Below are positions 1-11,317 of a stretch of DNA of 64,000 nt, piece by piece. Under the pieces are notes generated by a model, which searched no databases, was not told the DNA's origin, and saw nothing but the letters and a program-made list of their open reading frames with translations. The DNA is taken from IMG/VR virus record IMGVR_UViG_3300035158_000222, positions 1 to 64,000 of that record. One strand, written 5' to 3'. How positions within the stretch are numbered: position 1 is the stretch's first letter; each line of letters begins with the position of its first letter. The DNA is from a virus. A program made the translations under genes and the position numbers.

Positions 1-335
1 ATGGGTAGTTCGTACGGGTATGTCTTGCCAGGTTTTTTGCCCCTGTCAAGAAGATATACGAACTCTATATTATATAATTCTGTTAAAGATTCTCTTAGTG
101 TCCGGTAGGGAGCAATGGCTGCGACTATCACGATCTTTGTCTGGCTTAGCCTATGCGCCTCTCGCCCCATGTTCAGGCAGTTCATGTATCTTCCATTCTT
201 TGTGAAGTCCTTGTTATCGGTCTTGGCACGATAGTTGTCTCCGTCTAAAACGATAGAGTTAGGAATCATTTCGTGTAGCTTGTTGGCTAACGTGGTCTTG
301 CCCGCACCACTGTTACCGGAAATCCATAGGATCAT
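1..335 (-). CDS. cysC: Adenylylsulfate (APS) kinase, 3' end cut by window edge
   Basis: The first 111 codons are present and the C-terminal part lies beyond position 1. It begins with a P-loop (GNSGAGKTT, residues about 7-15), then LDGDNYR (about 32-38) and IAPYR (about 80-84); these are the P-loop, the DGD/NxR region and the IAPxR motif of APS kinase, which phosphorylates adenylylsulfate to PAPS. The ATG sits one base after the stop of the upstream nucleotidyltransferase gene, so the two are co-transcribed. PAPS is the donor for a sulfotransferase such as the one encoded at 6459-7097. Other P-loop kinases are possible but the motif set fits CysC best. The recognition rests on motifs only. 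Confidence 0.85.
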   Translation of the reverse strand, partial: MILWISGNSGAGKTTLANKLHEMIPNSIVLDGDNYRAKTDNKDFTKNGRYMNCLNMGREAHRLSQTKIVIVAAIAPYRTLRESLTELYNIEFVYLLDRGKKPGKTYPYELP

Positions 336-336
336 A

Positions 337-663
337 TTATTTCTTTTTGTTCCTGATATTTGTGGCAGAGATAGCTTCTATCCCTGGATCCAGACGAATC
401 TCATGGACACCGTAGCCTACTTTTCTCCCGTAGACTACGCCCTCTATATCGGGAATAGTTATTATCTTTAATAAATTGTTTCCTCCAAAGGCCTTGCGTA
501 CCATCTTCTTTCGTTCCTTGTATGTATGCGGATTATCTTTGCTCATCTTTGTATCACGTATTGCAACACAGATAGGCTTCCCAGCATCCAGGAACTTCTT
601 CACGAAAGCTTCATGGCCTTTGTGGAATGGTTGAAATCGACCTATATATAGATAGTATTTCAT
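337..663 (-). CDS. HxGH-type nucleotidyltransferase (NMNAT/cytidylyltransferase-like)
   Basis: A 108-residue protein with the nucleotidyltransferase signature GRFQPFHKGHE (residues 8-18, HxGH) and a C-terminal ISATNIR motif (about 98-104), both nucleotide-binding motifs of the NMNAT/cytidylyltransferase superfamily. It is shorter than NadM-type NMNATs and lacks the usual substrate-recognition stretch between the two motifs. Its start overlaps the stop of the small membrane gene by ATGA, and the APS kinase gene follows after one base. From memory, similar proteins are found next to or fused to APS kinases in phages and bacteria, so the substrate may belong to sulfate activation rather than NAD. 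That substrate is an inference. Confidence 0.75.
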   Translation of the reverse strand: MKYYLYIGRFQPFHKGHEAFVKKFLDAGKPICVAIRDTKMSKDNPHTYKERKKMVRKAFGGNNLLKIITIPDIEGVVYGRKVGYGVHEIRLDPGIEAISATNIRNKKK

Positions 664-764
664 AGCTTACGCTTCTTTATCTTTTCTACTAGCCAGCCTA
701 TACAGCAAATAAACAACATTGCTAAATAGGCTAGCGCTACTATTAATATGAATTTAAAACACAT
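660..764 (-). CDS. Small single-span membrane protein
   Basis: A 34-codon ORF starting MCFKFILIVALAYLAML and ending in a basic tail KIKKRKL. One hydrophobic helix spans about residues 4-25, followed by a positive C-terminus, which predicts a single membrane anchor with the tail in the cytoplasm. Its stop overlaps the start of the nucleotidyltransferase gene (ATGA), a tight translational coupling that supports it being real. It lies 3 bases downstream of the tRNA-Lys 3' end. No family is recognised. Confidence 0.6.
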   Translation of the reverse strand: MCFKFILIVALAYLAMLFICCIGWLVEKIKKRKL

Positions 765-767
765 ATG

Positions 768-841
768 TGGGCATGATAGGATTCGAACCTATGGTCTTCT
801 GCTTAAAAGGCAGTTGCTTTAACCAGCTAAGCTACACACCC
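768..841 (-). tRNA. tRNA-Lys (anticodon TTT)
   Basis: A 74-nt cloverleaf read on the minus strand. The acceptor is GGGTGTG paired with CATGCCC, discriminator A; the anticodon loop is CTTTTAA, and the T arm contains GGTTCGAATCC. CCA is not encoded. It is the most promoter-distal of the cluster. Confidence 0.93.
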
Positions 842-847
842 AACAGG

Positions 848-932
848 CGGAGAAAGAAGGATTCGAACCTTCGTAGGCGTTAACCTAGTCTCTGGTTAGC
901 AACCAGGCCCCTTTCCACTCGGGCATTTCTCC
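848..932 (-). tRNA. tRNA-Ser (anticodon GCT)
   Basis: An 85-nt class II tRNA: acceptor GGAGAAA/TTTCTCC, discriminator G, anticodon loop TTGCTAA closed by CTGG/CCAG, a long variable arm, and T arm AAGGTTCGAATCCTT. CCA is not encoded. It reads AGC/AGT. Confidence 0.93.
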
Positions 933-935
933 TGG

Positions 936-1023
936 CGGAAGGGGTGGGATTCGAACCCACGGGGCTTTGACACCTCACTGGTTTTCAAGGCCAGCTCCTT
1001 AAGCCAGACTCGGACACCCTTCC
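936..1023 (-). tRNA. tRNA-Ser (anticodon TGA)
   Basis: An 88-nt class II tRNA: acceptor GGAAGGG/CCCTTCC, discriminator G, anticodon loop CTTGAAA, long variable arm, T arm GTGGGTTCGAATCCCAC. CCA is not encoded. Only one base separates its 5' end from the next tRNA. Confidence 0.93.
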
Positions 1024-1024
1024 G

Positions 1025-1098
1025 TACGGGAGGTGAGATTCGAACTCACACTGGACAGGTTTTAAGCCTGTTGTCTCTACCGGTTGGACTACTCCCGC
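1025..1098 (-). tRNA. tRNA-Leu (anticodon TAA), short variable loop
   Basis: A 74-nt cloverleaf: acceptor GCGGGAG/CTCCCGT (G1-U72), discriminator A, anticodon loop CTTAAAA closed by ACAGG/CCTGT, and T stem GTGAG/CTCAC. The variable region is only 5 nt (class I), whereas bacterial leucine tRNAs are normally class II. Amino acid identity is taken from the anticodon; what actually charges it is uncertain. Confidence 0.88.
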
Positions 1099-1104
1099 TA
1101 TATG

Positions 1105-1178
1105 TACGGGAGGTGGGACTCGAACCCACAAATTTCTGGTCCTAAGCCAGCTGCCTATTCCAATTCGGCTACTCCCGC
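1105..1178 (-). tRNA. tRNA-Leu (anticodon TAG), short variable loop
   Basis: A 74-nt class I cloverleaf with the same acceptor as its neighbour (GCGGGAG/CTCCCGT, discriminator A), anticodon loop CTTAGGA closed by CTGG/CCAG, a 5-nt variable loop and T stem GTGGG/CCCAC. The shared acceptor suggests duplication from one ancestor. CCA is not encoded. Confidence 0.88.
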
Positions 1179-1187
1179 ATATATAAG

Positions 1188-1261
1188 TACACGGGAGAGG
1201 AGTCGAACCTCTACTGTCTAGGTTTTGAATCTAGTGCCTCTACCTATTGGGCTACCCGTGC
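1188..1261 (-). tRNA. tRNA-Leu (anticodon CAA), short variable loop
   Basis: A 74-nt class I cloverleaf: acceptor GCACGGG/CCCGTGT (again G1-U72), discriminator A, anticodon loop TTCAAAA closed by CTAG/CTAG, and T arm AGAGGTTCGACTCCTCT. Third leucine-type tRNA in a row, all without the long variable arm. Confidence 0.87.
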
Positions 1262-1274
1262 ATGTGTAAAGAAC

Positions 1275-1329
1275 AAACTTAAGTCAAGCTACTGAGCAAA
1301 CTCAGTAACGAGGATAATGACTTAAGTTT
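1275..1329. repeat. Nested perfect inverted repeats between tRNA genes
   Basis: Outer arms of 12 bases (AAACTTAAGTCA at 1275-1286, complement at 1318-1329) enclose a second perfect hairpin, TACTGAG-CAAA-CTCAGTA (1290-1307). The outer arms each contain the ACTTAAGT core that also forms the recurrent GAACTTAAGTTC palindrome elsewhere in the window. The 101-base gap 1262-1362 has no gene. It may be a tRNA-processing or transcription signal; there is no U-tract. Confidence 0.7.
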
Positions 1330-1362
1330 TAATACACGAGTATTCATAATAATTAATGTTAG

Positions 1363-1436
1363 TCGCGGCGGTGGGATTCGAACCCACGTCCTCGAAGTTA
1401 TGAGCTTCGCGAGCTGCCAGACTGCTCTACACCGCA
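1363..1436 (-). tRNA. tRNA-Met or tRNA-Ile2 (anticodon CAT)
   Basis: A 74-nt cloverleaf: acceptor TGCGGTG/CGCCGCG (U1-G72), discriminator A, anticodon loop CTCATAA closed by CGAAG/CTTCG, T arm GTGGGTTCGAATCCCAC. It lacks the three G-C pairs at the base of the anticodon stem that mark initiators, so it is an elongator or, if C34 is modified to lysidine, a tRNA-Ile reading ATA. Confidence 0.9.
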
Positions 1437-1440
1437 ATAA

Positions 1441-1507
1441 TGGAGCGGGCTACAGGATTTGCACCCGCCTTAAGGTGGTACCTTAAGTACCGCTACGATT
1501 CGCCCGC
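1441..1507 (-). tRNA. Minimal tRNA-Gly-like gene (apparent anticodon ACC), CCA encoded
   Basis: A 64-nt tRNA-like body followed by a genomic CCA, unlike the neighbours. The acceptor GCGGGC pairs with GCCCGC, the discriminator is U; the T arm is GCGGG-TGCAAAT-CCTGT; the anticodon arm is a strong CTTAAG/CTTAAG stem with loop GTACCAC. U73, G1-C72, C2-G71, C35 and C36 match known glycine identity elements. The D arm is reduced and the variable loop nearly absent. Its 5' 25 bases overlap the end of the gene at 1483-1695. It could be a functional oddity or a decaying tRNA. Confidence 0.6.
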
Positions 1508-1695
1508 CTTGTAAGCGGATCTCGTTCTCTGTTACAGAAGTGGCAATAGCGCTTATCTTCGTTCCCATCCAGGTAATGTCCTTGGATATAACAATCGTTT
1601 CCGTGTATGCTACACATTACTTTGCCACAGTTGGCACACTTTACTTGGAATGAACAATACAGACATCTAGTAGTTAATACTGAATCTTTCTTCAC
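1483..1695 (-). CDS. Small cysteine-rich zinc-binding protein
   Basis: A 70-residue protein with paired Cys/His ligands (CLYC, CANC, CSIH, a Cys-His pair, CHFC; residues 11-55), most likely binding two zinc ions in a B-box or treble-clef-like fold. The start is GTG with a well-placed AAAGGAG five bases upstream. It begins right after the stop of the 48-aa ORF at 1698-1844 and its last 25 bases overlap the tRNA-Gly-like gene. No function is recognised; such proteins are frequent in phage early regions. Confidence 0.7.
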   Translation of the reverse strand: MKKDSVLTTRCLYCSFQVKCANCGKVMCSIHGNDCYIQGHYLDGNEDKRYCHFCNRERDPLTRRANRSGT

Positions 1696-1697
1696 AT

Positions 1698-1844
1698 CTA
1701 CTCCTTTGGCACATCGATATGTGCTGTACGCTCAGGGCCCTTGGGATCGTCTTTGACAATAGCCATGACTCTCTTGTGGCCCTTCTTAACTGGTTTGTGT
1801 TTTAGTTTTCTTTTGTGCTCGCTTATTATTTGAACGATTTGCAT
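1698..1844 (-). CDS. Small basic protein overlapping the ART-like gene
   Basis: A 48-codon ORF beginning MQIVQIISEHKRKLK inside the 3' end of the 1786-2205 gene in another frame (59-base overlap). The N-terminal half is strongly basic; the second half (VMAIVKDDPKGPERTAH) is mixed. It ends at TAG, whose upstream GAG codon is part of the Shine-Dalgarno sequence of the next gene (GTG at 1695). It fills a gap that would otherwise be empty. No family is recognised. Confidence 0.5.
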   Translation of the reverse strand: MQIVQIISEHKRKLKHKPVKKGHKRVMAIVKDDPKGPERTAHIDVPKE

Positions 1845-2205
1845 ATCTCTTGAAGGCACCGCATTTAGACATGTGGCTGCGATACTTAGGGCCTAATGTT
1901 TTCTTAAGATTAAACTTGAACATTCTGTCGTTGAGCTTCTTGTTCTCCTGTAGCTTTGTCTTTGTATATCTGTGCAGGTCTACTATCTGTCTTGCCGGTA
2001 TTCGGTTAGTGCTGACGTATTCCCAGTATGTATGGTCATATGGTAGCTTGATCGATACTGCGAAGACATGTGTGCCTCCGTAGTGAACAGCGTCCTCGAG
2101 ATGATTCGCGAAGAATGTACCTCGTTTGAATCCCTCCTTTAGTATAATAGCAGCAGTCTTCTTGTCTGTGCCGTGATAAAACTTCTTCCAATATATCTCG
2201 CTCAT
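1786..2205 (-). CDS. ADP-ribosyltransferase-fold (PARP/DUF3990-like) protein
   Basis: A 139-residue protein with YHGT (residues 10-13), a following IILKEGF, FFANHLEDAVHYG (31-43) and YVSTNRIPARQIVDL (63-77). The HGT motif, the GF turn and the 'A..YG' segment resemble the NAD-binding core of ART-fold proteins. The C-terminal 45 residues are a basic tail. Phage ARTs modify host proteins or RNA early in infection; whether this one is active is unknown, since the catalytic Glu is not obvious. Family placement comes from motif resemblance only. Confidence 0.5.
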   Translation of the reverse strand: MSEIYWKKFYHGTDKKTAAIILKEGFKRGTFFANHLEDAVHYGGTHVFAVSIKLPYDHTYWEYVSTNRIPARQIVDLHRYTKTKLQENKKLNDRMFKFNLKKTLGPKYRSHMSKCGAFKRYANRSNNKRAQKKTKTQTS

Positions 2206-2233
2206 AAGGATGGTAAAGTCTAGAATGAATTAG

Positions 2234-2509
2234 TTAGTTATCTTTTCTATTATCCTGCTCTGGTGTGGTTGCGGCCATTGGCTGATCGCAGCGGTCTCTC
2301 ATTTTCTTTAGTGATAGCTCGTATTCGTCCGGATCCATCTTTCGTATCTCTTTGATTACGCTCTCTAGGATCTCGTAAGCTTTAACGATCTGTGATCTGA
2401 CTACTGCAGCTCGTGTGCGGGCAATCAGTCTATGTCTCAACTCGTCATCATATTGGCGCTTGAGCTTTTCCTCCTTAGTAAGGCCCTCAGGCTTTAGAAT
2501 ATTTCCCAT
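2234..2509 (-). CDS. Hypothetical helical protein
   Basis: A 91-residue, charge-rich protein predicted to be mostly alpha-helical or coiled coil (residues 10-75), with a polar disordered C-terminus. It starts 13-25 bases after small ORF stops in the preceding region and is followed by the ART-like gene after 28 bases. No family is recognised. Confidence 0.65.
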   Translation of the reverse strand: MGNILKPEGLTKEEKLKRQYDDELRHRLIARTRAAVVRSQIVKAYEILESVIKEIRKMDPDEYELSLKKMRDRCDQPMAATTPEQDNRKDN

Positions 2510-2601
2510 ATACTCTATTGTATTAACCTACATCTTCCATGTAGGCGACTCCACCATTCTCATGGTGACATATGTACTGATAATACAGGGCATTTGGTAT
2601 C

Positions 2602-2730
2602 CTACCGGGACTTCCCAGTCTTATACCCGTATAGAATCAAATACCCGAAAGTATCAATATACATGCAATGAGATCCCCGCCTATCTGCAATTCTTCGGGC
2701 AAACTGGCCCTCCCGATTCATTTCAGGCAT
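2602..2730 (-). CDS. Possible small ORF, 42 aa
   Basis: MPEMNREGQFARRIADRRG is followed by YIDTFGYLILYGYKTGKSR. The frame is open further upstream to 2826, but that extension begins inside a UUCG hairpin and looks non-coding, so the ATG at 2730 is preferred. No family is recognised; evidence is limited to an open frame in an otherwise empty gap. Confidence 0.3.
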   Translation of the reverse strand: MPEMNREGQFARRIADRRGSHCMYIDTFGYLILYGYKTGKSR

Positions 2731-2915
2731 AGGACGCCGCGTGATAGTAAAGAGACAGGGGAGCTCACTACATACGTAGTTCTTTGCTGGCCTCACCGGA
2801 GATCTTCGACCTATCAGCCCTGTCACGAATGACAGAGCAGGGCCACCGTAGTGTAATGGCTAACACTCGGAAGATCCACCACCCAATCGTGAAGGGCTGG
2901 AGAGTGTGGAGAGGT

Positions 2916-3032
2916 TTAAAGCAAACGACTCCGGTTCCCACCACCACCCCTTCTAGTTATTACTCCATGAAAGGGCTGATATACCAAAGCGTAGAACTCC
3001 GCATACGTTCGGACTTCTACGTCTAGGTACAT
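2916..3032 (-). CDS. Possible small ORF, 38 aa
   Basis: An ATG-initiated frame, MYLDVEVRTYAEFYALVYQP, ending in a Gly/Arg-rich tail. Amino acid composition is protein-like in the first half, but there is no strong ribosome binding site and no recognised family. Confidence 0.3.
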   Translation of the reverse strand: MYLDVEVRTYAEFYALVYQPFHGVITRRGGGGNRSRLL

Positions 3033-3167
3033 ACTAGCTGGTTAACACACCTACTTTCCGCAATATCTCCGGGCCAGCGCCGTCTATCCGGCCGCTTTCT
3101 TAAGCTAGCTATCGACAAGAAACGTACGCTCCTCGAGACAGGTGACGCAAGATGTGATTGTTTGATT

Positions 3168-3671
3168 TCAGTATATGTACCCCAGGATCCTAGGGTCATC
3201 TAGTGAGAGTTCTCGTTTGGAAATAACATATCGGCCTAAGAAGTTTTGTTCGCTGATATGTATATGATCGTCATGTACATCTTCAACAACAGCAACATGG
3301 CCGCGAGACTCATTGGTAATTACCATGCCTCCGATAATAGGAACGGTGCTGGTTGAGTAACCTTCTTCCTTTGCCCACTTGAGGAAATATCTAGCCCAAC
3401 CATAGAGCTGGATACCGGTCCTATAGCGCGCATATGGTACGCATGTTCCGTTACCGAAATACTTGACTTGTTGTAATGGACGTGGATCTGGTCTTTTTAT
3501 GGTACGTAGAAGAACTGGAGCTTTAATAGTTCCGTAATCCCAGGCGCATGTAGTACATGGTTCTTTCATAATTGCAAATCCTGGGCTTACTGCTGTCGGA
3601 AATAATATGCCAATAACTATCAGGAGTATGAATCTTTTGATGCCTATAATAGGCAATGGATCTTCATCCAT
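3168..3671 (-). CDS. CHAP-domain lysin with N-terminal signal/anchor
   Basis: A 167-residue protein. Residues 12-34 form a hydrophobic signal or anchor segment (RFILLIVIGILFPTAV), so it is probably exported. The remainder matches a CHAP amidase/peptidase: NGTCVPYAR with the catalytic Cys near residue 76, GWARYFLKWA, then GHVAVVE with the catalytic His near 124 and ISEQN (about 138-142) supplying the acidic/Asn residue. CHAP enzymes cut peptidoglycan peptides or the sugar-peptide amide. A strong promoter lies about 160 bases upstream (3832-3860), giving a structured leader. It is probably the endolysin. Confidence 0.8.
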   Translation of the reverse strand: MDEDPLPIIGIKRFILLIVIGILFPTAVSPGFAIMKEPCTTCAWDYGTIKAPVLLRTIKRPDPRPLQQVKYFGNGTCVPYARYRTGIQLYGWARYFLKWAKEEGYSTSTVPIIGGMVITNESRGHVAVVEDVHDDHIHISEQNFLGRYVISKRELSLDDPRILGYIY

Positions 3672-3831
3672 ATAGTATTAGTCAAGTCCATTGGCCGCTT
3701 AGCATCCGCAATCCTCTTTGTACACTCACGAGGAAGGGACACTAGGCACACGATGGACGCGACCCAAGCAGCTCCGAGTTCAATTCTCGGCCGGTAGTAT
3801 AATGGATAAAACGCGAGACCTGCTGTGTAAC

Positions 3832-3860
3832 ATTATAGCAAACATGTATGCTTTTGTAAA
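3832..3860 (-). promoter_or_regulatory. Sigma-70 promoter TTTACA-N17-TATAAT
   Basis: On the minus strand TTTACA (3855-3860) and a perfect TATAAT (3832-3837) are separated by exactly 17 bases. It starts at the stop codon of the 3861-4034 gene and drives the CHAP lysin after a leader of about 155 bases. The leader contains a CCGAG/CTCGG stem-loop (3773-3789). Confidence 0.75.
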
Positions 3861-4034
3861 TTAGAATTCCATGAGTTCCAGCCTCTCCCGTAACCTTAGG
3901 TAAATTTCAGGCGGGAGTAGGAACCGGATTTCTTCCACAGAATAAGGCGAGTCGTCGCTTAATATCTCTATTCTACCGCCCCGGAGATGTTGGTAATCCG
4001 GGTTCATGATAGCTTCTTCTACAAAGCTGAGCAT
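3861..4034 (-). CDS. Small hypothetical protein, 57 aa
   Basis: Starts MLSFVEEAIMNPDY and ends LRLRERLELMEF; predicted helical and acidic. The ATG lies 4 bases after the stop of the 4039-4341 gene; the longer open frame upstream overlaps that gene and is unlikely to be used. No family is recognised. Confidence 0.55.
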   Translation of the reverse strand: MLSFVEEAIMNPDYQHLRGGRIEILSDDSPYSVEEIRFLLPPEIYLRLRERLELMEF

Positions 4035-4038
4035 GTAT

Positions 4039-4341
4039 TTAGGTATTAAGTTGGAATCCTGTTTTTTTGTAAACAGTAACAAGATGTTTCTGGGAATAAC
4101 CCAGTTTAGTATTCCATTTAGCTTCGAAGACGAAGATGTATCCGCTGAATAAGCGATAGATCCTACTGCCTCCGTGTCTTTGTCTCTTTTTGTTGACATA
4201 CTCTTCTTTGATTTCCTCCCGGCTATTCCATGCTTTAGTTGTAATTTTTAGGAGCTTGTCCTTATTACATTTGAACCGCAGCTTCAGCTTCTGTTCGGCA
4301 TGGGAAGTGATAACAAACTCGGGAGGAAGAGAAGTTTGCAT
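4039..4341 (-). CDS. Hypothetical protein with HAEQKL motif (DUF4258-like)
   Basis: A 100-residue protein with ITSHAEQKLKLRF at residues 11-23 and a C-terminal beta-rich HLVTVYKKTG segment (86-95). The 'H-A-x-x-[KR]-L' start plus a closing strand resembles DUF4258/RelE-like small proteins, but nucleolytic activity cannot be argued from this. It is preceded by GAGGTG seven bases before the ATG. Confidence 0.6.
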   Translation of the reverse strand: MQTSLPPEFVITSHAEQKLKLRFKCNKDKLLKITTKAWNSREEIKEEYVNKKRQRHGGSRIYRLFSGYIFVFEAKWNTKLGYSQKHLVTVYKKTGFQLNT

Positions 4342-4350
4342 CGTAGCACC

Positions 4351-4425
4351 TCACACCTTGCAGTTCTTTTCGATTAGTTCCTTCAGGCGCTGTCGCACAA
4401 CGCCTGATATATTATTAATCCTCAT
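4351..4425 (-). CDS. Possible 24-aa leader peptide
   Basis: MRINNISGVVRQRLKELIEK plus four residues; predicted amphipathic helix. It ends 10 bases before the ATG of the next gene, within a 197-base gap (4342-4538) that otherwise contains a CCACC/GGTGG hairpin (about 4486-4520). Weak support. Confidence 0.3.
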   Translation of the reverse strand: MRINNISGVVRQRLKELIEKNCKV

Positions 4426-4538
4426 ATTAACGCCACAGTTTACTCCGTCTGCTTAGTAAAGCCTGTAGAGGCAGTACCTCACAGCCCCACCGAAAGAATA
4501 GCGATGCCGTTCCAAGGTGGCCAGAGTAAGCACTGACG

Positions 4539-4868
4539 TCAATAGAGGCTACCTCCTTCCGGTAGGGTACAATTATGTCTCCTACCGTCGAGGCATTCCT
4601 GTCTAAGTTGTGAAAATTTCACGAGAGCTTCCATTATTGTCTCGTATCCATGGGCTTCTATTATCCGGTCTATACCGATATCTTTCATGTGAACCTCTAC
4701 CTTACAGTCGCCACAGTCAGAGCACTTACTGATTGTTATTTTGTACCACGGATATTCCTGTCGAATAAATTCTTCGCATTTAACTATGTCATATTTACAT
4801 GGTTCTGCTTGGGAAATCTTTCTCCACATATAATTATCTTGATAGATCTGGTCCACAATTTTGTTCAT
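4539..4868 (-). CDS. Hypothetical protein with CSDCGDC motif
   Basis: A 109-residue protein; CSDCGDC at about residues 49-55 plus two further Cys suggests a metal site. The start ATG (MNKIVDQIYQ) lies 13 bases after the RuvC-like gene stop; the longer frame would overlap that gene. The C-terminal half is helical (TIMEALVKFSQLRQ). No family is recognised. Confidence 0.65.
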   Translation of the reverse strand: MNKIVDQIYQDNYMWRKISQAEPCKYDIVKCEEFIRQEYPWYKITISKCSDCGDCKVEVHMKDIGIDRIIEAHGYETIMEALVKFSQLRQECLDGRRHNCTLPEGGSLY

Positions 4869-4881
4869 GAATAATCTGTGG

Positions 4882-5394
4882 CTAAAGCTTGCGTCTAGCA
4901 TATTCGGCAATTAGTATGGCATCTGTCATGCCGTCATGTATCTTGGTACAGCGAGCTGACTTCTTGAATGTAATATCTGGGAACAGCTGCTGTGCTATAA
5001 GTTTGGAATGGTCCTTGGGCTTACCCTTGGGTAGGCCTTTGAACATCTCCTTCTGCCACTCTCGTGGCATTACTATAGTATACGGAAGGTTTAAGCCAGC
5101 GCATATTCCTTCAAGCTGACCGAATCCCTGTCCGATAGTGAAAGTAGAAGATACGCCTTGCTTAGGCATCGCACGCTGATGTTCTATCGCAATTATAGCT
5201 ACGGTCTTATCACATTGAAAGTCGTATGATGATGCCCATCCAAATAGAAGGGAAGATATCTCTCTTAGGTTGAGGCGGTTCTTCGTACCTATTTTGATTG
5301 TTGACATAACGTCTAGGTATACCATCTTGCCCTTCTTGTCCAGGCAGGCTATACCTCCGTTAATGCCAGGATCTATTCCTATATAAAGTTTCAT
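4882..5394 (-). CDS. RuvC-like Holliday junction resolvase/nuclease
   Basis: A 170-residue RNase H-fold nuclease. IGIDPGINGG (residues 5-14) carries the first catalytic Asp, IAIEHQR (68-74) the Glu, and IHDGMTDAILIAEYA (152-166) the two C-terminal Asp residues of the RuvC site. Such enzymes resolve branched DNA intermediates before packaging. Length matches RuvC (about 170 aa). It begins just downstream of the structured element at 5407-5495, which may control it. Confidence 0.85.
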   Translation of the reverse strand: MKLYIGIDPGINGGIACLDKKGKMVYLDVMSTIKIGTKNRLNLREISSLLFGWASSYDFQCDKTVAIIAIEHQRAMPKQGVSSTFTIGQGFGQLEGICAGLNLPYTIVMPREWQKEMFKGLPKGKPKDHSKLIAQQLFPDITFKKSARCTKIHDGMTDAILIAEYARRKL

Positions 5395-5406
5395 ATTGAA
5401 AATTTG

Positions 5407-5495
5407 AGTTACTAGGAGGATTGAATTCTAATCCAGATGAGGATCCCGCGTTGCGCAGGACTCTGTCGAAGCTGGCTCCCCGCCCCCTAGTAACT
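5407..5495 (-). ncRNA. Candidate structured RNA or leader closed by a 10-bp stem
   Basis: AGTTACTAGG (minus-strand 5' end at 5495) pairs perfectly with CCTAGTAACT (ending 5407). The enclosed 69 bases hold further hairpins: TCCTGCG-CAA-CGCGGGA and GGATT-AGAATTC-AATCC. Together this makes a multibranched fold of tRNA size, but without a canonical T loop or anticodon. It fills the gap between a zinc-ribbon gene and the RuvC-like gene exactly. It could be a cis-regulatory leader or a free small RNA; no known class is recognised. Confidence 0.5.
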
Positions 5496-5504
5496 AAAGA
5501 TCGA

Positions 5505-5696
5505 TCAGCAGCCGTACGGAAATGTCCAGGGCAACGTCTTGCTCTTGATGTGATTCGGATCGTCGCAGTCGATACAGACCCAGGCCTTTATAGTAATAAC
5601 GACAGTACAGTTCTCCGTACATAAGCCGTCGATCTTGTGATCTCTTACTCTGGTAAAGAGCGTTTTCTTTTCCTCGCCACATACATAGCATTTCAT
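5505..5696 (-). CDS. Small zinc-ribbon protein
   Basis: A 63-residue protein with CYVC (3-6), CTENC (26-30), CIDC (41-44) and a C-terminal Cys; two to three Cys pairs suggest a zinc ribbon. A GGAGG lies 10 bases before the ATG, which overlaps the preceding gene's stop (ATGA). No specific function. Confidence 0.7.
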   Translation of the reverse strand: MKCYVCGEEKKTLFTRVRDHKIDGLCTENCTVVITIKAWVCIDCDDPNHIKSKTLPWTFPYGC

Positions 5697-5854
5697 TCTT
5701 CATCGTCCTCCTTCTTCTTAAAATCGTACACATAGATCTCACCGCAGAAATTGCAGTTCCATACTTCTTTAACTTTCTTGTTCTGCTTTGTCAGCTTGTG
5801 AAATCTTAGTGGCCACTCGCACTTGTCGCACCAGTGAACATCTTTCAGACTCAT
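5693..5854 (-). CDS. Small zinc-ribbon protein, 53 aa
   Basis: MSLKDVHWCDKCEWPLRF is followed by WNCNFCGEIYVYDF and an acidic C-terminus; CDKC and CNFC (about 28 residues apart) form a typical zinc ribbon. A near-perfect AAGGAGG sits 7 bases upstream of the ATG. It overlaps the 3' end of the HNH gene by 86 bases in another frame and is coupled to the next gene by ATGA. Confidence 0.75.
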   Translation of the reverse strand: MSLKDVHWCDKCEWPLRFHKLTKQNKKVKEVWNCNFCGEIYVYDFKKKEDDEE

Positions 5855-6209
5855 CTAATACCTCCTTAAAATGTGATTCGTAATATGTTCCTATGAATTG
5901 TATGTCGAGCTCATTGAGCTTATAGCCTTGTGCCCTGGTTAGGGCAATGTATGTCTTGCGCAGAAGTGCTACTTCATATTCACGATGGTGTAATAAGCCG
6001 TTATCAAGATGGCAACCGCGATTGTGCATAGGTGCTGAGTTAAGGATGGATCCATTGAAGTCTCCGTGTCTGTGCTCGTATGAGCTTGGTGATATTATAT
6101 GATGAAGGCAGTCCCACTTGTTTTGTCCGCACCACATGCAGCGGTACCAGAACATCCATGCTTCTATATCGTTAGGACTGAACCTGTATTGCAGGCCTGT
6201 GTTTTTCAT
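5769..6209 (-). CDS. HNH endonuclease
   Basis: A 146-residue protein: CMWCG (24-28) and DCLHHII (33-39) give the zinc Cys pair and catalytic HH, followed by ILNSAPMHNRGCHLDNG (about 56-72) with the Asn and the final His of an HNH site. It is similar in layout to phage recombination/HNH nucleases. Its role may be homing, restriction or recombination; there is no DNA-binding module typical of homing HNHs. Its start overlaps the preceding gene by 38 bases and the last 86 bases are overprinted by the zinc-ribbon gene. Confidence 0.7.
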   Translation of the reverse strand: MKNTGLQYRFSPNDIEAWMFWYRCMWCGQNKWDCLHHIISPSSYEHRHGDFNGSILNSAPMHNRGCHLDNGLLHHREYEVALLRKTYIALTRAQGYKLNELDIQFIGTYYESHFKEVLDESERCSLVRQVRVATKISQADKAEQES

Positions 6210-6396
6210 ATCTCTGTTTGATAAGTTCGAACTTGATTAAAGCTCCGCCCTTAGTAGGGAAATATTCTTTGTAGTCCTTCCCAAATCGTGGAATTATAAG
6301 TATGCTAAATGCACGCTCTCCTGCCGTCGGCCATGCATATGCAAATATACTAACATACTCTGACTTATAGTACTTGAGTAGTTCCGGGATATTCAT
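6172..6396 (-). CDS. Hypothetical protein, first gene after promoter
   Basis: A 74-residue protein with aromatic and basic residues (ELLKYYKSEYVSIFAYAWPT) and no recognised domain. It begins about 15 bases after the -10 of the 6412-6439 promoter, so its mRNA leader should be only about 8-10 bases. Confidence 0.65.
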   Translation of the reverse strand: MNIPELLKYYKSEYVSIFAYAWPTAGERAFSILIIPRFGKDYKEYFPTKGGALIKFELIKQRYEKHRPAIQVQS

Positions 6397-6411
6397 ATTC
6401 CCATAGTATAT

Positions 6412-6439
6412 AGTATACAGTACACACTATACTTGTCAA
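6412..6439 (-). promoter_or_regulatory. Sigma-70 promoter TTGACA-N16-TATACT with adjacent DnaA-box-like site
   Basis: On the minus strand a perfect -35 TTGACA (6434-6439) and -10 TATACT (6412-6417) are 16 bases apart. Immediately upstream is TGTGGATAA (6447-6455), an exact match to the E. coli-type DnaA box TTATCCACA in reverse, then a second CTTGACA (about 6457-6463). It drives the genes from 6396 downwards. Confidence 0.85.
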
Positions 6440-6458
6440 GGGGAAGTTATCCACAATG

Positions 6459-7097
6459 TCAAGGGTATGTATAACCGTATGACTCTGCTAATGTTAGGAA
6501 TTTTTTCTTTATATCTCTATTGCACCTATGTAAATCTTCAAGCTTGAAGTACTTTGGATTCTCTCTCTGATTGTACTTTTTGACATATAATTCCTTGTCT
6601 TTATATCTTATACCAAGGGTTTTCAGAATGTCCGTCGGATCCTTGACAACTTCTTCTAACTTGAACCTAGCCTGACATAGGTTAGAGATCTCTTTATTCC
6701 ATGCAGTCCAGAAATATAGGTATCTATCCAGGCCATGGAACCGCATCATACTTGGTAGTCTCTTGCGTTTAAACATAGAGTATTCATTGGTCTCCATGAC
6801 CTGGTTGTCCAGGTGCTTGCCCTGATGCATGGAGCTCACAACCTTTAGGGGATCACGTACTACGTGAATGATCTGCACGCCTTCGCCCATGAAGTTATGA
6901 ATGAATGGCACCGCCATCCAGCTGCTGTCGCCTACGGCACCCTTTGGGTAGTATCCGTGGCCGGGTTGACCGAAGAACATTTCATGTCCTATCGGAACTC
7001 CAGCACTGGTGAATAGCTTAGCCATGTAACCGGTTCCGCTTCTTGGGGTTCCGGTTATTACGTACTTTAGTTTTCTTCCCTTTATACCAGCTGGCAT
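6459..7097 (-). CDS. PAPS-dependent sulfotransferase
   Basis: A 212-residue protein with the 5'-phosphosulfate loop TGTPRSGTGYMAKLF (residues 15-29) and the 3'-phosphate motif VVRDPLKVVSSM (79-90), both diagnostic of sulfotransferases that move sulfate from PAPS to a sugar, peptide or small molecule. With the APS kinase and nucleotidyltransferase genes at 1-663 it suggests a phage sulfation pathway. The acceptor is unknown; surface glycans or virion proteins are guesses. The stop codon overlaps the -35 region of the next promoter. Confidence 0.82.
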   Translation of the reverse strand: MPAGIKGRKLKYVITGTPRSGTGYMAKLFTSAGVPIGHEMFFGQPGHGYYPKGAVGDSSWMAVPFIHNFMGEGVQIIHVVRDPLKVVSSMHQGKHLDNQVMETNEYSMFKRKRLPSMMRFHGLDRYLYFWTAWNKEISNLCQARFKLEEVVKDPTDILKTLGIRYKDKELYVKKYNQRENPKYFKLEDLHRCNRDIKKKFLTLAESYGYTYP

Positions 7098-7164
7098 AGT
7101 TAGTAGCGCCTGAGAGAATTTATAATTCTACTTACATGACACTGATTAATGTTAAATATTTTAG
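7098..7164. other. Short intergenic gap
   Basis: Between the sulfotransferase start and the HNH remnant. It contains a small palindrome (GAATTATAAATTC) and AT-rich sequence; a weak promoter is possible but no good -35 is seen. Confidence 0.4.
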
Positions 7165-7320
7165 CTATTTCATATAGAAGAAGTATCTATGCGCTCTGTA
7201 TCTTCGCAGTTTATTATTTTCTTTTACATGAAGCTGGCCATATACATTGTAGCATGTGCTTCTGGTAAAATCCCAGCAACCATTACTTCTTTTTACGTAA
7301 TACTTTTTTAGACTTTGTTT
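7165..7320 (-). pseudogene. HNH homing endonuclease remnant (N-terminal part)
   Basis: A start-less open frame of 51 codons reads NGCWDFTRSTCYNVYGQLHV, then RRYRAHRYFFYMK and a stop. The 'CW.F...YG.......AHR..Y' spacing is the hallmark of the N-terminal part of HNH_3 homing endonucleases. There is no ATG, GTG or TTG in frame, and the catalytic HNH part is missing. It overlaps the last 38 bases of the zincin gene. It is best read as a decayed homing endonuclease. Confidence 0.55.
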
Positions 7321-7765
7321 TCATGCTGGCATTTGTACAATTGATTAATTTTAATCCAGTTTGAGGCCTTGGCGTACCAGCCTTATCATGCTTCCAGCGT
7401 ATGATCCTGGTTATATGCTGTGTAAGGCGTTCATTGGCCCTGTTTAATTCAGGGGGCGTGATGTAGCGATCTTGGGCCATGTAGAAGATCTCGTGAGTAA
7501 TACAGTGGATTAGCTCATGAGTCAGTGCCTCGACCAGCAGCGCGTCATTATTTAGTGTCATCTCTCGCAGATACGGATAGATATGCATTTCTGCTACGTA
7601 GTAGTGATATGTGGGCGTGACCGTGGCTGCTACACGCAAACCATCTTTAGTGGTGTCCTTAGATTCGAAGTGAACATGGACTGACCAATGTTCCATAAGG
7701 AGATCTTTTCTCAGCTCCTCGAGATAGTCTCCAACTTTCTTTTGAAACTCTTTATCTATTGGCAT
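7283..7765 (-). CDS. Zinc metallopeptidase-like protein (SprT/zincin type)
   Basis: A 160-residue protein with ALTHELIHCITHE (about 79-91), giving the HExxH zinc motif with an extra downstream His. The N-terminal region (EHWSVHVHFES) resembles the beta strands preceding the motif in SprT-like proteins. The C-terminus is very basic (KTKSKKVLRKKK). Its target is unknown. It overlaps the preceding zinc-ribbon gene by 14 bases and its end overlaps the HNH remnant. Confidence 0.65.
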   Translation of the reverse strand: MPIDKEFQKKVGDYLEELRKDLLMEHWSVHVHFESKDTTKDGLRVAATVTPTYHYYVAEMHIYPYLREMTLNNDALLVEALTHELIHCITHEIFYMAQDRYITPPELNRANERLTQHITRIIRWKHDKAGTPRPQTGLKLINCTNASMKTKSKKVLRKKK

Positions 7766-8081
7766 GTGAACGATAGTATAGTAAATTAAAACGCTTAGTA
7801 GTGGGATCGGGATACTGGTTCTTGCAATTCTTACAAGTGAAGTAGTAGGTATGATAAGACTCTTCCTTTAATACTTCCACGGTAACATCGACCTTATCTC
7901 TGGCAAACTTAGTACACCCGCACTTACATGCGTCAGGCTGATGCTTGTATTCTTTTGTCTTGCGCTTGCGTGGCCAACGAAGTTCATTGGAGCAGTTCCT
8001 GCACCTGGCAGTAACCATCCCCTTCTCAGTTTTAAATTTCCAATCTGACTTACCACACTCACCGCACGGTTTCATTGCCAT
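7752..8081 (-). CDS. Double zinc-ribbon protein
   Basis: A 109-residue protein with two ribbons: CGECG/CRNC (residues 6-30) and CKCGC/CKNC (51-86). These resemble TFIIS-like or rubredoxin-like ribbons used in nucleic-acid binding. The start could also be the Met two codons later. It overlaps its neighbours at both ends (8081 and 7765), typical of phage early operons. Confidence 0.7.
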   Translation of the reverse strand: MAMKPCGECGKSDWKFKTEKGMVTARCRNCSNELRWPRKRKTKEYKHQPDACKCGCTKFARDKVDVTVEVLKEESYHTYYFTCKNCKNQYPDPTTKRFNLLYYRSHANR

Positions 8082-8187
8082 GATTCCATTGGCAGTGCTC
8101 GCACCATCGGCACTGAACTAATTTAGAAACGTTTGTGGGTTTGTAATTGTGCCAGCCCAGCTTGCACAATATTTTTAAAATCTTCAT
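8059..8187 (-). CDS. Small zinc-binding protein, 42 aa
   Basis: MKILKILCKLGWHNYK then VQCRWCEHCQWNHG. The pattern 'LCKLG-x-H' followed by CxxCxxC is common in tiny phage zinc proteins. The start follows the preceding gene's stop within 4 bases and the end overlaps the next gene's start by 23 bases. This fills a gap that otherwise has no gene. Confidence 0.65.
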   Translation of the reverse strand: MKILKILCKLGWHNYKPTNVSKLVQCRWCEHCQWNHGNETVR

Positions 8188-8190
8188 AGG

Positions 8191-8715
8191 TTAACCCTTA
8201 ACCTCCTTCGGAGCCAGAAGCTCCGCTAATACAGCCTTAGCTGTTAGTTTTTTTATGATAGCCTTCTTGAGCTCTTTGATTTTCTCAACTGCTAGTTTAC
8301 AGGGCCTATCTGTGTCACCTATGATTTCCGGAAGGTCCTTTTCTTCTATCTCTATCTGTGCTATTAGCTGAAGTTTCCATCTTCCGGTGACCTTATCGAA
8401 CTCAAATCCTATCTTTGCAAGAACTTCTTTTTCCTTCTTACTCCATGGATTCATCCAGTTTCCCCAACCAGATCCAACGCTGGTGGTAGTTTGGCTAGGC
8501 GGATAGTATGGACTAGTTATATTCGTACCTGTCCTGGATGTATTCGGAGCAGGAACAGTGCTGGGCTGTCCAGTCTGTGGATCTACCCATACCATATTGG
8601 CATAGTTACCCTGGGCATTTTGCATAGCCTGTATATTCAGAGCATTGGAATTCTTCATAGCCTTTCTGAGTTTAGCCTGTTGAGCTTTATATTTTTTGTA
8701 TTTACTACTGAACAT
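8191..8715 (-). CDS. Hypothetical protein with low-complexity linker
   Basis: A 174-residue protein. The N-terminus is basic and helical (KYKKYKAQQAKLRKAM), residues 45-90 are a Pro/Thr/Ser-rich linker, and the C-terminal 80 residues form a helical domain (FEFDKVTGRWKLQL onward). The start ATG at 8715 lies one base after the stop of the CHC2 gene. It lies in the replication block; no family recognised. Confidence 0.65.
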   Translation of the reverse strand: MFSSKYKKYKAQQAKLRKAMKNSNALNIQAMQNAQGNYANMVWVDPQTGQPSTVPAPNTSRTGTNITSPYYPPSQTTTSVGSGWGNWMNPWSKKEKEVLAKIGFEFDKVTGRWKLQLIAQIEIEEKDLPEIIGDTDRPCKLAVEKIKELKKAIIKKLTAKAVLAELLAPKEVKG

Positions 8716-8716
8716 A

Positions 8717-9616
8717 TTAGTATCGTAACAGGAGCCTGACTGCATCATCGAAGCTCATGTTCTTGGATTCTACTATGAATTGTATAGTATCTCCGTTCCA
8801 TCCGCAACCATGGCAGTGAGCCCTGTTAGTATTATTATATATTGTAAAACTAGGATTCTTCTCGTTATGAAAGGGACATAGTGCCTGAGAATAGCCTGAG
8901 AGCTCCTGTGCTTTGATTAGAGAGCCGTAGGGCACTTTCCTGGCCTGAGCCTTCATTTCGGCTGTAATATGCCTAGAATCGGCTTGTGTGCCCTCGTAGT
9001 AAGCGATAGAACCACGGTTGGATTTAAGTTCTTTGTACAGTTTCTCAATATTTGACATGCTTTTAGCCACATTTACGAACCAACTAGGGCTATCCATCTC
9101 ATGTAATATGCGAAGATTAGTCTTTATTTCCTCTATCTGCGAACTTAAGTTCGCGTTTTCTTCCTTGAGGTACATAATCCTGGCCTTTTTCATGTCTGGT
9201 CCTATATCCGATAGGAAGATATCATCTCGGAATTCGGCCATTGCTGACTGAAGTTCGTGCTCATCCTGCGGCCGGTTCTTTGCCAGCTTACCAAGACTGT
9301 TGGTAGTATAGATATCATCCCACTCTTCCCAGTATCTTTTAAACCATTCGATAAAATCCTCCCAGTGATAGTTTTTAGCCATACGCTCAAGGCCCATTAT
9401 TGTACTATGTTTAACTACATAGCTTTCGTTGGTGATCTTCTGTGTTACCCAATGCATTGTCTGTCTGGCATCTTTACGATAGAACTCCAGCAACTTCCTG
9501 GACACGAAGCCGTCCTCAGATATCGGACCCATGAATCCGGTATCACGCAGTACAAGTTGTTTGCCGGGCCTTTCGAGAATTTCGAATAAGTGGCCCAGTC
9601 CAAAATAAATGTTCAT
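8717..9616 (-). CDS. CHC2 zinc-finger protein, primase-related, no TOPRIM
   Basis: A 299-residue protein. The C-terminus (about 240-299) is a DnaG-type zinc finger: CPFHNEKNPSF and CHGCGWNGDTIQFI, followed by MSFDDAVRLLL, exactly the layout of the primase CHC2 domain. The N-terminal 240 residues are unrelated and include a coiled coil (ENANLSSQIEEIKTNLRILH). In primases the CHC2 finger is N-terminal and followed by a catalytic TOPRIM domain; neither holds here. It may recognise template DNA for another synthetase, or act as a loader. The start overlaps the HU-like gene's stop by ATGA. The GCGAACTTAAGTTCGC palindrome lies within it. Confidence 0.75.
   Translation of the reverse strand: MNIYFGLGHLFEILERPGKQLVLRDTGFMGPISEDGFVSRKLLEFYRKDARQTMHWVTQKITNESYVVKHSTIMGLERMAKNYHWEDFIEWFKRYWEEWDDIYTTNSLGKLAKNRPQDEHELQSAMAEFRDDIFLSDIGPDMKKARIMYLKEENANLSSQIEEIKTNLRILHEMDSPSWFVNVAKSMSNIEKLYKELKSNRGSIAYYEGTQADSRHITAEMKAQARKVPYGSLIKAQELSGYSQALCPFHNEKNPSFTIYNNTNRAHCHGCGWNGDTIQFIVESKNMSFDDAVRLLLRY
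9139..9154. repeat. Palindrome GCGAACTTAAGTTCGC, copy 1
   Basis: A 16-base perfect palindrome inside the CHC2 gene. One of six copies of the GAACTTAAGTTC core in the window. Confidence 0.9.
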
Positions 9617-9909
9617 CTAAGTCGTCCTCCTAGTTTATCATTAAGTTTAAATATGATCTTGTATCCGCCGGGGTACTTCATTTTTACTCTTCGTTTTTTC
9701 TGGAAATCGTGAACTTCCCTGATGAACGGCTTTATAGAATTCCTCTTGAAGAATCCCAGGTATGGGAATACGAACTTCCCCTTAACACGAAGTTCGCGCT
9801 CCATGATCTTGATCATACACAGTAGTATATACTCTATATCAGACGCGCTGAACCCGGTAGTCTGTGATACTTGTTTGAAGAATGCTTTTGGATCTATGAA
9901 CTTTGACAT
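9613..9909 (-). CDS. Divergent HU/IHF-family DNA-binding protein
   Basis: A 98-residue protein with the HU layout: helix-turn-helix-like start, GKFVFPYLGFFKRNS (about 45-59, equivalent to the HU 'PGFGxF' strand), a basic arm (FQKKRRVKMKYPGG) and a final strand IIFKLNDKL. Length matches HU (about 90-100). It lies between replication genes, consistent with nucleoid or origin architecture. A second, canonical HU is at 42338-42616. Confidence 0.7.
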   Translation of the reverse strand: MSKFIDPKAFFKQVSQTTGFSASDIEYILLCMIKIMERELRVKGKFVFPYLGFFKRNSIKPFIREVHDFQKKRRVKMKYPGGYKIIFKLNDKLGGRLR

Positions 9910-10211
9910 GATTCATGCGTCCAGCCCCACATAAGATTGAACTCCTGCCAGAATTTCTCTAGTGACTTCTTGTCTTTACGCGGGAACTTCATAAATTCTC
10001 TTCGTGCTTCTATGTTTGTACTAAGAAGATCGAGTAACCACTTCTTGAACTCTTCTTGTTGTTCATTGTTCCATGTATGTGACTGGAACCAGTTCTGGCT
10101 TTCGAAGTCTACGTTGTCAGGATCTACGTTAATAACCTGGCACATTTTGCAGATTGCCAGATTTAAGTACTTTGGCAGGTCTTTTCCTTTTACGCTTAGC
10201 TGTTTTTTCAT
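9894..10211 (-). CDS. Conserved-looking hypothetical protein, replication block
   Basis: A 105-residue protein, aromatic-rich in its second half (NNEQQEEFKKWLLDLL, then FWQEFNLMWGW). The 'Q..eFk.Wl...l..n..ar..f....W' pattern recalls a small phage protein seen near replication genes, but no function can be given. It overlaps the HU-like gene by 16 bases and the upstream gene by 83 bases. Confidence 0.65.
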   Translation of the reverse strand: MKKQLSVKGKDLPKYLNLAICKMCQVINVDPDNVDFESQNWFQSHTWNNEQQEEFKKWLLDLLSTNIEARREFMKFPRKDKKSLEKFWQEFNLMWGWTHESCQSS

Positions 10212-10425
10212 AATAATTAATTAGCTTATTGTAAGCCGCAAGCGACACAACAAGGCTGTTATAATAATATGTCCTGCAGTTTAAATCCTGGAATTCTCCT
10301 TTATACTCTTCCGGCTCATCCAGAACAAGATATATCATGTGTCCCTCTATACCGAGGGACACATGTACAAGCTTTCTGCCCCTAGCAAAATGCACCTGAA
10401 AAGAGTTTTTCGTAATTTTTTTCAT
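10129..10425 (-). CDS. Hypothetical 98-aa protein overlapping both neighbours
   Basis: Starts MKKITKNSFQVHFARGRKL, with a beta-rich middle (VSLGIEGHMIYLVLDEPEE) and a basic helical tail (KTAKRKRKRPAKVL). It overlaps the end of the HAD gene by 44 bases and the start of the 9894-10211 gene by 83 bases. The tail overlap is long, but otherwise 170 bases would be empty. A longer open frame upstream lies inside the HAD gene and is rejected. Confidence 0.55.
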   Translation of the reverse strand: MKKITKNSFQVHFARGRKLVHVSLGIEGHMIYLVLDEPEEYKGEFQDLNCRTYYYNSLVVSLAAYNKLINYYEKTAKRKRKRPAKVLKSGNLQNVPGY

Positions 10426-10756
10426 TATGTTTCCTGTAAACGAGGACGTTGGTCCGACCGAGGCCGATTTCACAGTCGTCAAAGGTGAGGTCAATCTCTC
10501 TTTTATGGCCGCCCAGCTCAGGCTTAGCAATACAGTCGGTGACAATTCCCGTGATTCCAAGCTTTTCGCAGATGGTCTTAGCATAATCAATACCGCCAGC
10601 GGACCAGACGTATATATTGTCGCCGTTATTGTAGAACCAACGCATGACAGCTATCATGTCGTAGTCCGGGACCTGACGCTTAAGTTTAACATCTACTTTA
10701 TAAATTGTGTCATCAACGTCAAACGCTACGTTTATTGGTTTTGGATTCTTAGACAT
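10382..10756 (-). CDS. HAD-superfamily phosphatase-like protein
   Basis: A 124-residue protein: FDVDDTIY (12-19) is HAD motif I with both Asp residues, VWSAGG (50-55) motif II, GHKREIDLTFDDCE (83-96) motif IV. The overall size and the VWSAG motif fit small phage HAD proteins related to 5'-nucleotidases or polynucleotide kinase phosphatase domains. It probably acts in nucleotide or nucleic-acid end metabolism. The gene follows a strongly structured 5' region (10764-10830). Confidence 0.75.
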   Translation of the reverse strand: MSKNPKPINVAFDVDDTIYKVDVKLKRQVPDYDMIAVMRWFYNNGDNIYVWSAGGIDYAKTICEKLGITGIVTDCIAKPELGGHKREIDLTFDDCEIGLGRTNVLVYRKHNEKNYEKLFSGAFC

Positions 10757-10763
10757 AGGTTCT

Positions 10764-10830
10764 GATAAAGCGACACGAGCCCTGGGGCAGGGGGAAGGAG
10801 GGTTACCCTTAGGCTACACGCCGCCCTATC
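10764..10830 (-). ncRNA. Candidate structured 5' leader of the HAD gene
   Basis: The minus-strand transcript between the stop at 10836 and the ATG at 10756 folds into a closing helix of about 14 base pairs (GATAGGGCGGCGTG with CGTGTCGCTTTATC), with four or five G-U pairs, an internal loop, and an apical GGGTAACCC hairpin. The G-U pairs favour an RNA made from the minus strand rather than a DNA site. It resembles no riboswitch or ribozyme class that I recognise. Confidence 0.45.
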
Positions 10831-10835
10831 AAAAT

Positions 10836-10973
10836 CTATTTTGACCAAAATTTCTCGGGCAGTTCTACTTTGTCAATCTTAATCTTCTGCAGTTTTTTCA
10901 CGGAACCGCCTGAGACTTTCATTTTCTTTTTCTTACGACGCTTATCTTCGCGCCGCTCTCCTTTTGTTTTCAT
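10836..10973 (-). CDS. Small highly basic protein, 45 aa
   Basis: Starts MKTKGERREDKRRKKKKMK; the N-terminal 25 residues are almost all charged, and the C-terminus is IDKVELPEKFWSK. The ATG overlaps the previous gene's stop (ATGA), which decides the start over a longer upstream frame. It probably binds nucleic acid. No family. Confidence 0.6.
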   Translation of the reverse strand: MKTKGERREDKRRKKKKMKVSGGSVKKLQKIKIDKVELPEKFWSK

Positions 10974-11317
10974 AACTTTGATGCTTCTTCGAGCTTTTCT
11001 TTGTTCTCGTTCCACCAATCGCGAGCTTTACTGATGCATCTGCTGGGATCAGAATCCTTAAACATCTTCTTTACCTGGATTCCTTTGTAGTTATAACCGA
11101 GAGTACATCTGAATCCCCTGATTAAAGACTTTGTCACAAAGAAGGTTTCGATCTTCTTGTCTTTTGCAAAATCTAAATTAAAGACGCTGCAATATACGCG
11201 TGGCATAGCTGCAGGTTTGCTCTCTTTGCCCTTCTTGTATGCATATGTAAGAGCTGTAAATAATGGCGCTAACACAAAGCAAGCTGCTATGATAAATAGT
11301 ATTTTGTTAGTGGTCAT
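10970..11317 (-). CDS. Membrane-anchored hypothetical protein
   Basis: A 115-residue protein with an N-terminal transmembrane helix (NKILFIIAACFVLAPLFTAL, residues 4-23) followed by a soluble domain with four Cys and a basic, helical C-terminus (ARDWWNENKEKLEEA). The start ATG at 11317 immediately precedes the hydrophobic segment; the longer frame to 11386 runs through a structured intergenic region. No family recognised. Confidence 0.65.
   Translation of the reverse strand: MTTNKILFIIAACFVLAPLFTALTYAYKKGKESKPAAMPRVYCSVFNLDFAKDKKIETFFVTKSLIRGFRCTLGYNYKGIQVKKMFKDSDPSRCISKARDWWNENKEKLEEASKL

Follow-up and report, generated by a model that had tools for sequence, protein, structure and literature searches.

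Could a compact APS-kinase-family enzyme and a shortened NadM-like nucleotidyltransferase supply phage sulfotransferases with their donor?

Can a phage bring its own means of activating sulfate? The question is raised by one end of the IMG/VR virus record IMGVR_UViG_3300035158_000222, where a kinase, a small HxGH nucleotidyltransferase (hereafter NT) and a sulfotransferase-like open reading frame (ORF) lie within the first 7,097 bases. The window that we have analysed is a stretch of 64,000 nucleotides, bases 1-64000 of the 99,954-base record, and it begins at base 1 of that record. Judging by a terminase-like ORF, the source is a tailed phage, a virus of bacteria. A preliminary description of this DNA reported the three genes and interpreted them as a sulfation route based on 3′-phosphoadenosine 5′-phosphosulfate (PAPS); the observation is confirmed here and the interpretation is partly supported. 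We propose that the kinase and the NT form a miniature PAPS synthase, in which a NadM-derived NT replaces ATP sulfurylase and the phage sulfotransferase uses the product. We regard the chances of this proposal as evenly balanced. The genes concerned are the following:

335..3, minus strand, cut at the record edge: compact kinase of the adenosine 5′-phosphosulfate (APS) kinase family, allele A (Pfam APS_kinase, NCBIfam apsK, profile match).
663..337, minus strand: HxGH nucleotidyltransferase, 108 aa (Pfam CTP_transf_like, family alignment, AlphaFold2).
7097..6459, minus strand: sulfotransferase-like ORF, 212 aa (sub-threshold Sulfotransfer_3, PRSGT and VRDPLKVVSS).

The kinase and the NT are one unit. 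A search with an NT alignment retrieved 67 viral loci (numbered with the prefix L), 58 of which (L011-L068) hold an essentially whole NT. The kinase is found in 57 of these 58, the exception being L013, where the NT is at a contig edge, and in none of seven loci with ordinary nicotinamide mononucleotide adenylyltransferases (NMNATs; L069-L073, L075 and L077). The remaining two are a locus with both genes in broken frames (L076) and a fragment (L074). The two genes are fused in 40 of the 69 loci that hold both. PHROG 10255, annotated as ‘kinase’ with no stated link to sulfation, spans the two, with the kinase at profile positions 3-85 and the NT at 133-228. Fusions with the kinase first are found in isolates, namely Stenotrophomonas phages Bhz60 and DLP6, Xanthomonas phage AhaSv and Clavibacter phage 33; the Bhz60 fusion protein has the accession WVW77517.1. 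The pair in the source phage is a split version of PHROG 10255, encoded as separate genes with the NT first, which bears out the earlier claim that the NT is coupled to the kinase. Distances between kinases and between NTs are correlated (r 0.85 over 53 distinct pairs, against 0.28 for the best of 2000 permutations), a figure raised in part by common ancestry of the host genomes.

The kinase half is well placed in the APS-kinase family. Kinase A matches Pfam APS_kinase (PF01583) with an E-value of 1.3e-15 and 58.2 bits, over the cut-off of 21.1, compared with an E-value of 0.016 for AAA_28. The apsK equivalog TIGR00455 gives 3.4e-16; the copies in the record score 59.4 and 47.6 bits, below its cut-off of 138.7. 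The kinase profile matches canonical APS kinases with 98.7% probability; the kinase alone, used as a query in viral_contigs, found no relative. The preliminary description had called this kinase truncated, a claim that stands for the family and falls for the length. Because the window begins at base 1 of the record, the truncation is an edge effect. A second copy at the far end completes the gene, with contig 99071-99083 supplying the C-terminus if the ends join, and because reading into the repeated flank gives a total of ~115 aa, we consider the kinase naturally compact and reject a real truncation. Loss of the APS-kinase residues on completion had been named beforehand as the refuting outcome; DGDxxR, F[ST]xxxR and [IV]APYRxxR are all retained, the last as [IV][SA]PYRxxR when canonical kinases from phages and SAR11 are included in the alignment. 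In copy B, M replaces the F of F[ST]xxxR. The compact phage kinases as a group have shorter lids and keep motifs of the DGDxxR, F[ST]xxxR and P-x-x-x-R types. An AlphaFold2 model of one fusion (L027; pLDDT 89, pTM 0.63) gave APS kinase as the first Foldseek match, followed closely by shikimate and gluconate kinases.

The NT half is less conventional. It matches Pfam CTP_transf_like (PF01467; E 3.6e-9), and its best NCBIfam models are NadM-type NMNATs, which it misses by far (TIGR01527, 41.8 bits against a cut-off of 181.2). The AlphaFold2 model (pLDDT 90) has the fold of phosphopantetheine adenylyltransferase (PPAT) and NMNAT, and the VIA-align matches have Z-scores of 11.3 to 10.2 across 101-107 residues. 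The matches listed do not include ATP sulfurylase, an absence that carries no weight. With NadM, the archaeal NMN adenylyltransferase (1f9a, 4yp7), the NT shares this fold and motifs of the GRFQPFHxGH and SxTxIR types. It differs in its partner, an APS-kinase-type enzyme, and in being ~60 residues shorter, and the preliminary description had called it too short for a normal NMNAT. We aligned six family members with three NadM-type proteins, and all six have gaps of ~16 residues after the IPDI strand and ~8 before the GY segment, and no C-terminal tail. The first gap presumably corresponds to the NadM segment that carries the NMN contacts. In its place an alignment of 41 members shows a conserved VxYGR[DK]VGY...ISATxIR block. 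With the middle segment and the tail missing, we reject NMNAT as the straightforward interpretation of the NT.

For the context of the pair we compiled a set of 50 phage records, comprising 46 of the 58 loci L011-L068, three of four isolate loci and, except in the search with PF13469, the source record; 12 loci resembling duplicates and L007 were left out. The ATP sulfurylase Sat (PF01747) is over its cut-off in none of the 50, and its eight weak matches (10-14.5 bits) fall in several cases on the NT itself. The pair is set apart from Sat, from NadM and from the apsK equivalog, because it misses the cut-offs of all three.

A known enzyme with the same architecture is the bifunctional PAPS synthase (e.g. 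human PAPSS1), in which an N-terminal APS kinase is followed by a C-terminal ATP sulfurylase, itself a nucleotidyltransferase of the HxGH superfamily. In a profile search of PDB sequences the first half of the phage fusion matches APS kinases, PAPS synthase chains 1x6v and 2pey among them, and the second half matches NadM. There are clear differences. PAPS synthase has ~600 aa and the phage fusion ~250 aa, the phage NT is NadM-like (PF01467) and not of the PF01747 type, and the lid of the phage kinase is shortened. From these comparisons the pair appears PAPS synthase-like, and the NT is its interesting part. We recognised no description of the pair as a sulfation module in the open-access literature.

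The third gene was said to be a sulfotransferase with both PAPS motifs in the same region. Both segments are present, TPRSGT at about residue 17 and VRDPLKVVSS at about residue 80, and we take them to correspond to the 5′ phosphosulfate loop and the 3′ phosphate-binding segment. The profile score is weaker (Sulfotransfer_3, PF13469, E 1.3e-4, 22.8 bits), a little under the cut-off of 27, and the ORF is 5.8 kb from the kinase and NT genes. It aligns to module-linked sulfotransferases of phages and SAR11 over the VRDPLKVVSS segment only (E 2.3e-4). No relative of it was found in phage genomes, or in viral_contigs by single-sequence patterns.

Elsewhere the linkage is clearer. Sulfotransferase domains occur in 28 of the 50 kinase-NT records, often adjacent to the pair, a count that takes in the Sulfotransfer_4-like genes of Bhz60 and AhaSv and excludes the sub-threshold ORF of the source record. 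Sulfotransfer_3 is over its cut-off in 4 of 49, each time 0.6-1.4 kb from the NT. Our enrichment comparison was made with Sulfotransfer_2 (PF03567), not PF13469, and the control was 29 of 80 viral loci bearing the unrelated gene gp32, those on contigs of ~18 kb or more. Sulfotransfer_2 matches 22/50 kinase-NT records at E ≤ 0.01 (9 over the cut-off) and 1/29 controls (none over the cut-off; Fisher p 7e-5). After near-identical records are merged the numbers are 14/34 and 1/19 (p 0.009). Among the controls, L174 matches the NT profile weakly, at 19.6 bits. Among the 25 IMG/VR records with a match the sulfotransferase is less than 10 kb from the NT in 18, and the gap is 102-150 bases in six, five of these from one near-identical cluster. 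In Casjensviridae isolates a Sulfotransfer_4-like gene lies two genes upstream, over the cut-off in Bhz60 and Clavibacter phage 33 and below it in AhaSv. The Bhz60 protein also matches a PHROG called ‘hydrolase’ and no PDB sequence, so for this family the evidence for a sulfotransferase is mixed. A failure of the three genes to occur together in relatives had been named as a second refuting outcome; they do occur together in other phages, in the counts given above, although no close relative of the source phage was found. In the excerpt of one report, OM43-phage genomes carry Sulfotransfer_3, of the same PAPS-using family, with a function in phages that remains unclear; that excerpt mentions no donor-making module (PMC10580990).

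Aquatic phages commonly carry relatives of the pair, as does the ocean bacterium SAR11. Nine cellular genomes with a whole NT were examined: seven SAR11, which are incomplete single-cell or metagenome assemblies, one gammaproteobacterial metagenome-assembled genome (MAG) and one planctomycete MAG. All nine have an APS kinase, one has CysD over the cut-off and one has Sat; for SAR11 the counts are 7/7, 1/7 and 0/7, with neither CysD nor Sat in six of seven. In L079, L080 and L082 (SAR11) the NT is directly 3′ of a full-length APS kinase, sulfotransferase-domain ORFs are close by in L079, L082 and L085, and in the planctomycete MAG a Sulfotransfer_1 gene is directly upstream of a kinase-NT fusion. 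The NT family is present in 87 of 157 Pelagibacteraceae genomes (E ≤ 1e-8; G168 at 3e-9), where it is often paired with a compact kinase, in varied surroundings.

The chemistry that we infer from these genes is as follows. The NT, without the portion that in NadM comes after the central strand, would attach an adenylyl group from ATP to a small anion, sulfate being the likeliest (ATP + sulfate -> APS + pyrophosphate). The compact kinase would convert the resulting APS to PAPS (APS + ATP -> PAPS), and the phage sulfotransferase would use PAPS during infection to sulfate a glycan or a protein. We favour the NT as the maker of APS because its partner is an APS kinase with no known sulfurylase, because the NadM segment has been lost, and because of the parallel with PAPS synthases. 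The earlier suggestion that the NT may feed the PAPS pathway is the best-supported reading, although each chemical step, APS production included, is conjectural. A glycan as acceptor would be in keeping with other genes of the source record, a methyltransferase and weak glycosyltransferase-like ORFs at window 33786-34529 and contig 93030-93665.

Several observations weigh against this proposal. No sulfate site is evident in the sequence or structure of the NT, whose closest relatives are NMNAT and PPAT. The canonical lid segment RDxKxLYxKA, present in two phage kinases (L008 and L009) and in the full-length SAR11 kinases of L079, L080 and L082, is absent from the window kinase and the compact phage kinases in our alignment. 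By the models used, 22 of the 50 kinase-NT records have no sulfotransferase match, the source record among them. A NADAR gene lies between the sulfotransferase and the kinase-NT fusion in Bhz60, and hints at ADP-ribose or NAD chemistry. One of the nine cellular genomes has CysD and another has Sat, and the absence of these genes from SAR11 is weak evidence because the genomes are incomplete. Finally, the 157 Pelagibacteraceae genomes show no association between Sulfotransfer_3 and the NT (34/87 with the NT, 21/70 without, p 0.24), and we reject a link between these two at the level of SAR11 genomes.

The last of these points suits the alternative that survives best, in which the product is a different 3′-phospho-adenylyl compound. 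The substrate that the NT adenylylates would be some other small acid or a phosphate, and the APS-kinase-like enzyme would phosphorylate the 3′-OH of the product. APS kinases phosphorylate the 3′-OH of an adenylyl compound; the substrate-side elements are remodelled in both enzymes, and the compact pairs of SAR11 sit in varied contexts that do not track sulfotransferases. The enrichment of sulfotransferases in phages, together with the SAR11 and planctomycete loci, points at PAPS instead, and we judge this alternative unlikely.

Slightly less likely again is a small counterpart of NadR, with a kinase that phosphorylates nicotinamide riboside and an NT that makes NAD+, refilling NAD+ against NAD-consuming defences. 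NadR, an NMN adenylyltransferase and ribosylnicotinamide kinase, likewise combines an HxGH nucleotidyltransferase with a P-loop kinase. Its kinase is from another family and its domain order is the opposite, with the nucleotidyltransferase before the kinase. NadM is the closest sequence relative of the NT, NADAR adjoins the Bhz60 fusion, and a phage NadR that joins a HIGH nucleotidyltransferase with a P-loop kinase is described in the excerpt of a further report (PMC9503650). However, the Pfam scores put the phage kinase with APS_kinase (1.3e-15) and not AAA_28 (0.016), it comes first in the fusions, the NT has lost both NadM middle pieces (~16 and ~8 residues) and the tail, and the linkage to sulfotransferases would be left unexplained. 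The weakest alternative, that the kinase alone serves sulfation on host-made APS while the NT does something unrelated, draws on the many hosts that make APS with CysDN or Sat and on phage APS kinases that have no NT (L008 and L009), and is improbable in view of the frequent fusion, the near-obligate pairing and the general lack of CysD and Sat in SAR11 carriers.

The record also has the following features around the pair:

1436-767, minus strand: seven tRNA genes, between the sulfotransferase-like ORF and the NT.
1..119: exact repeat of contig 99084-99202 (3′ part of the kinase).
434..544: exact repeat of contig 99844-99954 (inside the NT).

The cassette recurs, in the same orientation, at the far end of the record, where version B has a kinase B of 117 aa (99071-99424), 76% identical to kinase A, and a partial NT that runs off the record end. 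The contig begins and ends exactly at the exact stretches of 119 and 111 bases that the two ends have in common. The most economical interpretation is a single circular or permuted genome that has two strain alleles; the alternative is a tandem duplication. Version B has an extra 277 bases between NT and kinase (contig 99425-99701; L004 17425-17701), HNH endonuclease-like by eye, and other endonuclease-like ORFs are also found between kinase and NT in L016 and L048, as if this junction attracts homing endonucleases. Two LAGLIDADG-looking ORFs (by eye) lie between the parts of a probable capsid gene that seems split (contig 90241-92702; L004 8241-10702), and a single minus-strand ORF of 5,943 aa runs from window 46276 to contig 64107. 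A terminase query found no close relatives of the phage and a second terminase search gave distant matches only; megablast of window 1-20000 against phage genomes had no match, and PADLOC reported weak P-loop matches only.

Other genes recur near the pair in other genomes. A small DUF2061 membrane protein is found in 37 of the 50 kinase-NT records (e.g. L012, L014, L016, L031, L036 and L048), a count made without the control set; we rejected it as a marker of sulfate metabolism, as 12 gammaproteobacterial loci that carry it showed no sulfate-activation gene by eye within ~1.5 kb. ORFs resembling QueC or PP-loop ATPases are found at L031 6342-6923 and at L036 4790-5377 and 6341-6928, with a Pfam QueC match for the first two. 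The NADAR gene of Bhz60 (Pfam; L005 11148-11588) has a look-alike, by eye, near the canonical APS kinase of a 462-kb phage (L009 4071-4547). In SAR11, compact pairs are common as chromosomal genes with no obvious sulfation genes nearby, e.g. in L249, L250, L252, L253, L256 and L262. A pyruvate-kinase-like gene is found just 3′ of the NT in L079 (7090-8109, confirmed with Pfam for this locus only), L080 (6330-7316), L082 (6653-8011), L085 (6326-7687) and L086 (6321-7316). Several SAR11 NT loci adjoin rRNA-like or masked stretches by eye, as does the surface-polysaccharide region HVR2 in the excerpt of a report that also names sulfotransferases in SAR11 (PMC2217521).

If the proposed miniature PAPS synthase is real, phages bring their own sulfate-activation enzyme to drive their sulfotransferases. 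These would then have a source of their donor and a purpose open to test, and phage or host glycans that carry sulfate are predicted. Because four cultured phages carry the fusion, the question can be tested at once. We hold with somewhat less confidence, a little short of even, that the NadM-derived NT of 108-120 aa is a third and previously undescribed class of ATP sulfurylase, that with the compact kinase it makes the smallest PAPS synthase known, and that the pair enables aquatic phages, and SAR11 lacking CysDN or Sat, to sulfate molecules of the surface or the virion. Such a new kind of ATP sulfurylase would give SAR11, which in these genomes have an APS kinase but mostly no CysD or Sat, a possible way to make PAPS.

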